From positions 62,001 through 126,000 of the forward strand of contig JAOULW010000003.1 of the NCBI GenBank assembly GCA_029881805.1: a DNA stretch of 64,000 nt, in the 5' to 3' direction. The notes beneath the pieces are model-generated. The model did not search any database. It saw nothing but the letters and a program-made list of their open reading frames with translations, and was not told the DNA's origin. Below are positions 8,895 through 14,398 of the stretch, one piece after another. The DNA is from Candidatus Bathyarchaeota archaeon (GTDB taxonomy: Archaea; Thermoproteota; Bathyarchaeia; Bathyarchaeales; Bathycorpusculaceae). Both the position numbers and the translations under genes were made by a program. How positions within the stretch are numbered: position 1 is the stretch's first letter; the number at the start of each line of letters is the position of its first letter.

Positions 8895-9773
8895 TCACTT
8901 CTTCACCTCTAACAAGACGAAATCCACAATTTCGTCAGCAATGTTGACTTTCGTTACTGATTGTAAGCCTCTCCAGCCTGGTTGACTGTTTACCTCAACA
9001 ACTAGTGGACCCTTAGGGCTTTCTAGGATGTCGACGCCAGCAATTTTGCATTCGATTAATTTAGCTGATTTGACAGCTAAATCTTCAAGTGTTTTTTCAA
9101 GTTCTATGGGTTCGGGGCGTGCTCCTTGACTGTAGTTGGTTTTCCAGCTGGTTGCGATACGCCGCATTGCAGCAACAACACGGTCGCCAATGATGAACGC
9201 TCGAATGTCAGAAAAGCCATGGGGAACAAATTCTTGGATATATATAATCCCGTGATAAAACGTTATAGAGCGGAAGATCGTATGAGCAACTTCTGGATCC
9301 GTGACGCGTGTTGCGCCTATTCCTCTGGAGCCAAACAGAGGTTTGACAACAACATCTCCTTCAAACTCGTTAAAAGCTTTAAGCGCCTCATTGACGCTTT
9401 CAGTTACCGCTGTACGTGGTACAGACACGTCATTATCTTCCAATATTGCCAGAATGTCATATTTGTCGACACAGTGCTCAATCGCCTCTGGGGGATTTAT
9501 GATGTATAAGCCTAGCCGTTGAAGCCTGTAGAGCATGTCCATCCTGAAAACTATCTCTTCTAAAGAACCTCGTCCAATTGGACGGATTACTAAAGCATCT
9601 AAATCTTCCAAAACACCAACGTCACCGATGTTTAAGAGGGGTTTGTATCCCACACGAGCAACCACCTGGGGGAAGCTGAAGCATATGTAGAATATGTTGT
9701 GTCTTGTCAAAGATTCTTGAAGCTGGGTTGAAGTCCAAGAGTTTCTGTTTCGTGTTATAATTCCAGTTTTCAA
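8895..9773 (-). CDS. RimK-family alpha-L-glutamate ligase (MptN/CofF-like)
   Basis: This 292-residue ATP-grasp protein has the RimK layout: an N-terminal pre-ATP-grasp domain, VVKPLFGSRGIG as the ATP-binding loop, IYIQEFVP, DIRAFIIGDRVVAAMRR, and the metal-binding end VVEVNSQPGWRGLQ. In methanogens the closest relatives add glutamate to tetrahydromethanopterin (MptN) or cap coenzyme F420 (CofF). Both would make sense beside the C1 genes here, but the sequence alone does not separate them from other RimK-type ligases. It lies 12 bases upstream of fdhD on the same strand, a probable operon. Confidence 0.85.
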   Translation of the reverse strand: MKTGIITRNRNSWTSTQLQESLTRHNIFYICFSFPQVVARVGYKPLLNIGDVGVLEDLDALVIRPIGRGSLEEIVFRMDMLYRLQRLGLYIINPPEAIEHCVDKYDILAILEDNDVSVPRTAVTESVNEALKAFNEFEGDVVVKPLFGSRGIGATRVTDPEVAHTIFRSITFYHGIIYIQEFVPHGFSDIRAFIIGDRVVAAMRRIATSWKTNYSQGARPEPIELEKTLEDLAVKSAKLIECKIAGVDILESPKGPLVVEVNSQPGWRGLQSVTKVNIADEIVDFVLLEVKK

Positions 9774-9934
9774 AAAGGAACCTTCCGAGGTTTTGAATCT
9801 GTGAAAGATGCTGGTGAATTAGGTTCTTAAAGTTTCTGTGCAGAAAACAAAAACGATTTCTATCGTGGCTCCTTTCTCACCCTAAGTCCGTTTGTTTGTA
9901 CCAATCACTTAAAATTAGCAACCGGGCATATTCT

Positions 9935-9949
9935 AAACTCGTCGAGTTT
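9935..9949 (+). promoter_or_regulatory. Short perfect stem-loop upstream of the rRNA methyltransferase
   Basis: AAACTC and GAGTTT form a perfect 6-bp stem around GTC, about 50 bases before the TTG start at 10001. A TATA-like CTTAAAAT lies at 9908-9916, so the stem-loop would be close to the 5' end of the transcript or just at the start site. It could be an operator or a leader hairpin, or be chance. Confidence 0.3.
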
Positions 9950-10000
9950 GCGATTCAGGGTTTGAGGTTGTGCCGCTAAGCTATTCAGAGAGGCATCGCA

Positions 10001-10825
10001 TTGAAAGGTGACGAATCAGACAAGAAAAAGCAGCTTGACCAGGTGGTCAATGCCGTCTTAAAAAGCCCAAAATACAGGAATGTTTGCGATGACCTAATCA
10101 AAAATATTGGTGCCCAAGAGCTTTCAAAACAAAAAAACATCAAAGCAGCCATAAAATCTACGAAGAACAAGTTGCATCAGATAGCCGGTGCCTATTTCCC
10201 AAAGAAGCCAGACTATTGCTTATGGTTGAATAAACTAAGAGCAGCAAAGAAATCGAGGAGTGAGGAGTTATTTCGCAAAGTTTGCGCAGATATAATGCTT
10301 TACCACTATTCAACTAGAGAACGGCTGAATATTTTAGACGAGTTTTACGCGAGAATTTTTTCGCTTCTTCCCGCTATTAATTCCATAGTGGACGTCGCTT
10401 GCGGATTCCATCCGCTTTCGATCCCTTGGATGCACCTACCTCAAAGGGTTAGATACTATGCTTATGATGTTTACAAGGATATGATACGCTTTCTAAACGA
10501 GTTTATGGCTCTCAATGAAGTCCAAGGATGTGCTGAGGTTATGGACGTGGTACAAAAGACACCAGAGATTAGTACCGAATTGGCTTTTGTTCTTAATACC
10601 ATACCGTGTTTTGAGCAAATTGAGAAATCAGCCGGATTGAAGGTTCTGGAATCTATCAACTCGAATTTTCTTGTTGTTTCTTTTCCAGCTCATACGCTTG
10701 GAGGAAGAGAGAAGGACATGCGGAGGCATTATGAGGCTAGATTTGGCGAGTTGACGGAGAAAAAAAACTGGATTATCCAACGACTAGAATTTAAAACGGA
10801 GCTAGTTTTTCTAATTACAAAATAG
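10001..10825 (+). CDS. Homologue of 16S rRNA (m7G1405) methyltransferases (ArmA/Rmt/FmrO family)
   Basis: The 274-residue protein follows the FmrO/Arm/Rmt family over its full length. The N-terminal helical region has SPKYRNVCDDLIK, AQEL and KLHQIAGAYF. It is followed by STRERLNILDEFY and the SAM-binding loop VDVACGFHPL near residue 130. The C-terminal block VVSFPAHTLGGREK...M...HY...F is diagnostic of the family, as is ELVFLIT at the end. Known members methylate N7 of G1405 in the 30S A site and confer high aminoglycoside resistance. TTG 10001 is preceded by GAGAGG at suitable distance. It stands alone, with no resistance or mobile genes beside it. Confidence 0.88.
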   Translation: MKGDESDKKKQLDQVVNAVLKSPKYRNVCDDLIKNIGAQELSKQKNIKAAIKSTKNKLHQIAGAYFPKKPDYCLWLNKLRAAKKSRSEELFRKVCADIMLYHYSTRERLNILDEFYARIFSLLPAINSIVDVACGFHPLSIPWMHLPQRVRYYAYDVYKDMIRFLNEFMALNEVQGCAEVMDVVQKTPEISTELAFVLNTIPCFEQIEKSAGLKVLESINSNFLVVSFPAHTLGGREKDMRRHYEARFGELTEKKNWIIQRLEFKTELVFLITK

Positions 10826-10836
10826 ATTCAGCTCTT

Positions 10837-11766
10837 TTAAAATCTATGAATATATGGGATTAGTTGTTCTGCCTTCTCGAATTTTTCGGAAAGGTCCACA
10901 TCCAAATAGGCACCATGAAGATTGAAATACGGCGGTCCTTTCCGAGAAAATAAGGTTAGAACCTTTCCTCCATGATCGATTTTGAAGCCCTCTTCGCAGG
11001 GCTCATGCCCTCTTATCAAGATTTTGACATTAAATCTTCTTAGCGCATTGTTTGTTGCGTTTTCACCATATAGTTTTCCTGCGCCTCTTGGAGACGCACA
11101 TGTATCTCCGATAATTTCATTTGGATCGCTCCAGAGCATATCCTCAAGAAGCCGTTGTTTTGGATGTTTAGTGTGGGCGTACGCCAAATCCCCTATAGTT
11201 TTGGCTTGTGGGGGTAAGCCTCCGTGAACCATTAGGTAACGTTCTTCAACCAGCACTCCAAGATAAAGGAGCGAAAAAAATGTGCGAATTTTACCATACG
11301 CTTCCGTCCATTTTTCGCCGAATTTGGCTTGAAACTCGATTGGCAAGTCGTGTGGAGAAGCTAAAAGGTCTTCTGGTCCCTCATGGTTTCCTCGCATCAA
11401 GATGATTTGTTCTGGAAAAAGCAGTTTCAACTTAAAAATTGTGTAATAAACTTCTACTGAGAGTTCGCCGCGGTCACCATAGTCCCCGAGGAAAATTAGA
11501 ATCGCTTCGCCTTCTTGGTTCATTTTTTGCAGAAAATTGCTTTCTTTTAGAATTTGGATTAGACTTTCTAGGTCTCCGTGCAAATCGCCAACTATTAGTG
11601 CCTTGCCTAAGGGCTTTAGTTTGACAAGTCTTCCGAATATGTCTAAACTTCCAATTTTTCCATTTTCTTCAGAAAGCAGTTGTGTAGTCGATTCAAGAAT
11701 TCGGACAAAGCCTTCATGATTAGTTTCCAAGGCTTCTTTGACAATTTGCGAAAGGTCGGCCTGCAA
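10837..11766 (-). CDS. PPP-family serine/threonine protein phosphatase
   Basis: The three metal-binding signatures of PPP phosphatases are present: GDLHGD at about residue 60, GDYGDRG at about 95 and RGNHEGP at about 125. VHGGLPP and RGHEP follow. The enzyme should remove phosphate from phospho-Ser/Thr (or Tyr) proteins with two metal ions. I chose TTG 11766 because GAGGAG lies 7 bases before it; the frame is open to another TTG at 11781. It directly follows the coiled-coil gene on the same strand, and its ribosome-binding site overlaps that gene's end, so the two are likely co-expressed. Confidence 0.9.
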   Translation of the reverse strand: MQADLSQIVKEALETNHEGFVRILESTTQLLSEENGKIGSLDIFGRLVKLKPLGKALIVGDLHGDLESLIQILKESNFLQKMNQEGEAILIFLGDYGDRGELSVEVYYTIFKLKLLFPEQIILMRGNHEGPEDLLASPHDLPIEFQAKFGEKWTEAYGKIRTFFSLLYLGVLVEERYLMVHGGLPPQAKTIGDLAYAHTKHPKQRLLEDMLWSDPNEIIGDTCASPRGAGKLYGENATNNALRRFNVKILIRGHEPCEEGFKIDHGGKVLTLFSRKGPPYFNLHGAYLDVDLSEKFEKAEQLIPYIHRF

Positions 11767-11781
11767 TAAGCTACTCCTCAA

Positions 11782-13888: not shown

Positions 13889-14398
13889 ATGATAAAACCA
13901 ATTCTCCAACTAGGCAACGAGACACTTAGAAAGGAATCGTTGGCTGCTAAAGACTTTCATGATAAGAATCTAGAAAAGACTATAGAGGATTTACACCACA
14001 CACTCAACGAGGCTCGAAGAAAGTTTGGTTATGGTCGCGGAATTGCAGCTCCACAGATAGGAGTGCTAAAAAGAATCATCTTCGTTGACACACAAGACCT
14101 GAGGTCGGTGATGATAAACCCACAAATAGTTTGGACTTCTGATGACAAATTAGAGGTTTGGGACAGTTGCTTCAGTTTTAACGTAGCATTTTTTGTCCTA
14201 GTTGATAGACATCGCAGCGTAAAAGTAGAATATTACGATGAACATGGAAAGAAACATCTGATAGGTGCAGAGGATAAATTGTCTGAACTTTTGCAACATG
14301 AAATAGACCATCTTGACGGCGTTCTCGCCATAGACAGAATTAAATATCCAAAAAAGATTATGATGCGTTGTGAGTGGGAGAAACAGTTTAAGGGTTAA
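13889..14398 (+). CDS. def: Peptide deformylase homologue
   Basis: The 169-residue protein carries the deformylase motifs in order: GRGIAAPQIG (motif I, about residues 49-58), DSCFS in place of EGCLS (motif II, metal-ligand Cys94 kept), and QHEIDHLDG (motif III, His137, Glu138, His141). All three metal ligands and the catalytic Glu are present, so it may be active. Bacterial deformylase removes the formyl group from nascent N-formyl-methionine. Archaea start with unformylated Met, so the natural substrate here is uncertain. It converges with mch by an 11-base overlap. Confidence 0.88.
   Translation: MIKPILQLGNETLRKESLAAKDFHDKNLEKTIEDLHHTLNEARRKFGYGRGIAAPQIGVLKRIIFVDTQDLRSVMINPQIVWTSDDKLEVWDSCFSFNVAFFVLVDRHRSVKVEYYDEHGKKHLIGAEDKLSELLQHEIDHLDGVLAIDRIKYPKKIMMRCEWEKQFKG

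Follow-up and report, generated by a model that had tools for sequence, protein, structure and literature searches.

The gene examined in the window (the whole 64,000-nucleotide stretch of DNA, from an uncultured archaeon) encodes a genuine full-length member of the FmrO superfamily, with similarity far beyond chance. It is an orphan of a Tgt-Rmt gene pair, has an altered active site, and is still under purifying selection. On balance, the explanation that we favor is that of a SAM-dependent RNA methyltransferase of the FmrO/Rmt superfamily that was transferred from bacteria, inserted into an archaeal operon, retained and modified without a Tgt partner. Computation showed the family and fold, the insertion, the sparse distribution, the clustering with proteins of bacteria, the absence of the partner, the loss of Lys199 and the selective constraint. 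The donor would have been bacteria related to the present Chloroflexota and Poribacteria carriers, from which the gene may have reached the archaeal lineage, where it would have inserted between two genes of a conserved operon. Afterwards it would have been kept by purifying selection without the Tgt-family partner of its bacterial relatives. The enzyme may still methylate rRNA at the 30S A site or close to it (h44 around G1405); with its changed active site, it would tune the ribosome by this modification and would not act as an aminoglycoside-resistance determinant. The features of the locus are collected in Table 1.

Table 1. Features of the methyltransferase locus, in window positions.
Feature	Positions	Strand	Basis or remark
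RimK-like ATP-grasp gene (PF08443), flank of the interrupted operon	8895..9773	-
Insert region between the flanking operon genes	9774..10836		68-122 bp in 19/22 resolved relatives without the methyltransferase
7-bp inverted repeat AAACTCG-T-CGAGTTT	9935..9949		stem-loop of the original prediction; without evidence of function
Shine-Dalgarno-like GAGAGG, 7 nt before TTG	9988..9993	+	sequence, read by eye
FmrO/Rmt-family class I methyltransferase, 274 aa, TTG start	10001..10825	+	PF07091, NF000466, AlphaFold, dN/dS
STRERL block, residues 104-109, including E107 and R108	10310..10327	+	invariant in the bacterial set
SAM-binding motif I DVACGFHPL, residues 131-139	10391..10417	+
Codon AAT, Asn199, directly after beta4 (motif IV region)	10595..10597	+	replaces Lys invariant in 96 bacterial family members
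Glu267, kept	10799..10801	+	invariant in the bacterial set
Calcineurin-like phosphoesterase gene (PF00149), flank of the interrupted operon	10837..11781	-

Protein family, fold and active site

The original prediction had assigned the protein to the FmrO/Arm/Rmt-type family from blocks of sequence along its length. These blocks were present, and the assignment was confirmed by a profile search, in which the full-domain match to PF07091 (FmrO) scored 186.4 bits (gathering cut-off 27, E 8e-55) and covered profile positions 2-254 of 255. Sgm matched residues 11-274 with an E-value of 5e-47 and 34% identity from end to end. The AlphaFold model had a mean pLDDT of 91.6 and showed the N-terminal helical region and the class I methyltransferase fold of the family. 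Its best structural match was Sgm (3lcu, TM 0.90), and the TM values for RmtF and RmtB were 0.80 and 0.77. Sgm (structures 3lcu and 3lcv) and its relatives are the FmrO family of actinomycete aminoglycoside producers. The residues of the SAM-binding motif (D131, C134, G135, P138, D156 and D182) were all kept. No PF07091 match was found in 14 control genomes, nor was there a further one in the 2.2-Mb archaeal assembly that carries the gene. PADLOC, which covers anti-phage defence, gave no match for the protein.

The similarity to Sgm thus extends over the full length and includes the fold, the SAM motif, the STRERL block, R108 and E267. Unlike Sgm, the window protein has Asn at position 199, no producer cluster was seen at its locus, and its host is an archaeon with G1408. 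The plasmid-borne m7G1405 methyltransferases RmtB/C/D/E/F/G and ArmA belong to the same superfamily and share the fold, with 25-29% identity for those aligned; the window gene differs from them in being chromosomal and not mobile, in lacking Lys199, and in its score against NF000466. This score was 216.1 bits, under the curated equivalog cut-off of 250. The two archaeal relatives scored 235.6 (G281) and 209.9 (G1044), and a Thermosporothrix protein passed the cut-off with 254.9.

The window protein keeps 30 of the 34 positions at which at least 85% of the bacterial rows agree. Changed positions included G239, which is Asp here, and position 199, where each of the 96 bacterial relatives examined, Sgm, ArmA and RmtB/C/E/F among them, has Lys. 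The window and G281 proteins have Asn at this position and the G1044 protein has Leu; in a second, divergent archaeal PF07091 group the residues are Lys, Lys and Arg. Strand beta4 ends at residue 198 in the AlphaFold model, which places position 199 in the motif IV region. In class I methyltransferases, the target base is approached at the region right after beta4. From its conservation and its place after beta4, Lys199 is probably important for catalysis, and without it the enzyme could have a changed target or be inactive. The set of residues shared by the known m7G1405 enzymes examined, which includes Lys199, is therefore incomplete in the window protein, which departs from an m7G1405 equivalog in two respects, the NF000466 score and Lys199. 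The original prediction had named loss of the SAM- and G1405-contact residues as evidence against it; the SAM-motif residues were kept, and the active-site region lost one residue that is otherwise invariant. The archaeal orphan, which has naturally lost this lysine, offers a natural experiment on the role of the residue.

A methyltransferase whose substrate has shifted (to a different base, position or RNA), or a derivative that binds RNA without catalysis, would account for the replacement of this lysine in all three archaeal proteins, for the additional change of G239, and for the lack of a Tgt partner in two of these three lineages. We consider it rather unlikely, as neither the overall fold nor the N-terminal helical region has changed, and most conserved residues are kept.

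Insertion into an archaeal operon and bacterial relatives

The neighbors of the gene encode ThiW, a HerA-like ATPase fragment, FdhD, the RimK-like ATP-grasp protein, the calcineurin-like phosphoesterase, a coiled-coil-like protein without a Pfam match, an ECF-type component and a peptide deformylase. Among the neighbors examined there was no transposase, integrase or other mobile element, in line with the earlier description of a solitary chromosomal gene, and there were no resistance or antibiotic genes. The peptide deformylase family gene (PF01327, 137 bits, positions 13889-14398, plus strand) is a side observation in an archaeon.

The phosphoesterase and RimK-like genes were both located on one locus in 25 genomes. 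In relatives without the methyltransferase the operon order is coil-phosphoesterase-RimK-FdhD, and the spacing between the two genes, in 22 such genomes, was 68-122 bp in 19 and 236 bp in one; the remaining two had other sequence of 1.2-1.3 kb there. In the window genome, in G281 and, as a remnant, in G384, the methyltransferase lies in this gap on the opposite strand, tail to tail with the phosphoesterase gene. Where the methyltransferase is inserted, the RimK-like gene still has its conserved upstream sequence, GAAACTTTAAGAA. Since the gene lies between these two genes in few genomes and most have only 68-122 bp there, it is an insertion relative to most relatives. As a separate observation, the same gap (window positions 9774-10836; loci L052 and L062) holds other inserts in some genomes, which suggests a tolerated insertion site.

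The window and G281 copies share 69% identity, resembling the 62-79% of the flanking genes. Their dN is about 0.2 and their dS about 1.8 (YN00) or saturated, again similar to the flanking genes, and the GC content of the gene is 0.40 vs 0.42 for the window. Because the identity is like that of the flanks, dN is low at near-saturated dS, and the GC content fits the genome, the insertion is old and constrained; the gene is under purifying selection. Bacterial contamination of the assembly, which the bacterial type of the gene might suggest, is refuted by shared synteny and is extremely improbable: the contig is 184,663 bases long, the same insertion site is occupied in the independent genome G281 and by a remnant in G384, and the GC content fits the window. 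The archaeal host named in the original prediction is upheld.

A stem-loop about 50 bases upstream had also been pointed out. The inverted repeat exists, but it is unremarkable: folding of the RNA in this region gave a z-score of -0.41, similar repeats occurred at 0.64 per kb across the window, and none was present upstream of the G281 orthologue. It was dropped as a candidate element.

Genomic relatives were retrieved with a three-sequence alignment; a scan with the single protein gave no match. Of the 91 genomes in the window's family, only the window genome and G281 carried intact copies, and G384 retained an 83-codon C-terminal remnant at this insertion site. Across all 257 genomes of the class there were three intact close copies, the third being that of G1044, a member of another family. 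The closest bacterial proteins found came from Poribacteria (51% identity) and Chloroflexota (up to 49%), which together span 44-51%, followed by actinomycetes (32-37%). A PF07091 homologue was carried by 77 of 400 sampled Chloroflexota genomes, and a Nanoarchaeota homologue of a bacterial 16S rRNA methyltransferase, likened to Sgm by reference to the Sgm structure, has been reported (PMC3655853). That protein resembles ours as an archaeal occurrence of an Sgm-likened protein, the two being compared by description only. The earlier view that known members come from producers and resistant pathogens was therefore incomplete. A viral scan for relatives was empty, and two 'phage' matches were rejected, as they had the same 28.4% over residues 11-258 as the plasmid armA matches.

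In an unrooted tree of 102 rows, the three archaeal proteins formed a clade (support 100/99) that was joined to Poribacteria (L023) and Chloroflexota rows at 97/97, and the Sgm-type and plasmid-type proteins were placed elsewhere. The root of this tree is uncertain, and an AU test did not reject a clade of the three archaeal proteins with the second, long-branch archaeal group (p 0.29). In the flanking-gene tree the genera of the window and G281 genomes (g1 and g8) were not sisters, and their joint clade was not rejected (p 0.13). The gene was apparently acquired by the archaeon from bacteria; because the tree is unrooted and the AU test permissive, the inferred direction of transfer rests on the distribution and the insertion.

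The original prediction had offered an old housekeeping role in the archaeon, and an ancient, vertically inherited archaeal enzyme could draw on the second PF07091 group in a few archaea and on the AU result. However, that group is distinct and long-branched. The close group was found in only 3/257 class genomes, with one remnant besides; the gene interrupts an operon that is otherwise conserved, and it groups with bacterial relatives. We regard this possibility as very improbable. The second group itself (L006, 1237-2169; L007, 1261-2205; L008, 1384-2184, minus strand) is very divergent and possibly native to archaea.

The Tgt-family partner

In most Chloroflexota and Poribacteria relatives, a Tgt-family gene directly adjoins the methyltransferase gene, often with RsmI nearby, and in the archaeon G1044 (L148) the gene order is QueT-Tgt-Rmt. 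Such pairs were seen at L023, L025, L026, L148 (6434-8944) and most of the Chloroflexota loci L075-L146, sometimes with RsmI or QueT. The linked Tgt is a separate paralogue, as a canonical Tgt was also present in most carriers tested. Three of its blocks are changed (MPVGTxxxVK to PDATxxxVR, GGLSVGE to GGWPLD, and PTRxARNG to PTRDARHGRLY), and the aspartate of DSGGFQ and, mostly, the zinc cysteines are retained. The linked Tgt occurred in 68 of 400 Chloroflexota genomes and PF07091 was found in all 68 of them (Fisher p 2e-67, ignoring shared descent); 56 of the pairs were adjacent and 5 lay within 10 kb. Tgt and Rmt protein distances correlated with r 0.85 over 27 pairs, much of which could result from shared descent alone.

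The same Tgt type was found upstream of plasmid rmtB2, rmtD1 and rmtG, and a shortened copy upstream of rmtE2 (plasmid loci L179, L180, L181 and L183); at rmtG, RsmH also precedes Tgt. A 'tRNA ribosyltransferase' upstream of rmtG had been noted earlier (PMC3904158), and our literature search found no paper generalizing the Tgt-Rmt link. A metallophosphoesterase beside plasmid rmtB2 was rejected as a shared neighbor, having no meaningful similarity to the phosphoesterase of the window. Two divergent Rmt-family genes lie close together in several Chloroflexota (L026, 4087-6777; L132, L135-L138 and L141); at L026 they flank the Tgt gene, and the second Rmt type forms its own clade.

The Tgt with the GGWPLD-type loop was absent beside the window gene and from the window genome, G281 and G384, each of which has one Tgt, of archaeal type. 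The window gene is thus solitary, unlike rmtB2, rmtD1, rmtE2 and rmtG, and unlike its closest bacterial relatives, which keep Lys199 and mostly adjoin the Tgt paralogue.

To our knowledge, the original source and function of the pan-aminoglycoside-resistance Rmt/Arm genes are unsettled. The pairing of Rmt with a distinct Tgt, common to Chloroflexota chromosomes, four plasmid Rmt types and one archaeon, provides a testable ancestral context and suggests that a Tgt-Rmt operon for RNA modification was the source of some of the clinical Rmt genes, which would have escaped from it; the window gene points to the origin of the resistance family. Tentatively, and with somewhat less confidence than in the bacterial transfer, we propose that the Arm/Rmt family may primarily be one half of a two-enzyme RNA-modification system (a specialized Tgt base-exchange paralogue and Rmt) of Chloroflexota and some other prokaryotes. 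The clinical resistance genes would have been mobilized from it, and the archaeal branch, having lost the invariant lysine and, in two lineages, being without Tgt, would have been repurposed for a different rRNA modification.

Ribosomal target and resistance

The 16S rRNA of the host (L003) reads CGCCCGTCGTTCC, which corresponds to G1405, U1406, C1407 and G1408 in E. coli numbering. The target nucleotide G1405 is present in the context CGCCCGTCG, and AAGTCGTAACAAGG on the 3' side is kept as well. A guanine at position 1408 (A1408G) lowers the sensitivity to most 2-deoxystreptamine aminoglycosides. Since the host already has G1408, a resistance function would add little, and the gene is unlikely to serve in aminoglycoside resistance.

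The reading as a conventional m7G1405 methyltransferase that shields the archaeon from aminoglycosides would agree with the full-length similarity to Sgm and Rmt, with the retained SAM motif, R108 and E267, and with G1405 in the host. Nonetheless, it is unlikely given the Asn at position 199, the score under the NCBIfam equivalog cut-off, G1408, and neighbors devoid of resistance or antibiotic genes among those examined. The same host nucleotide, lost lysine and low score weaken the suggestion of a reservoir lineage for resistance. Because Lys199 and the partner gene of most bacterial relatives are both absent, the window gene is probably not a resistance gene, and such archaeal genes should not be annotated as resistance genes. 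For the transferred and modified methyltransferase that we favor, homology points to rRNA at the A site as the most likely substrate.
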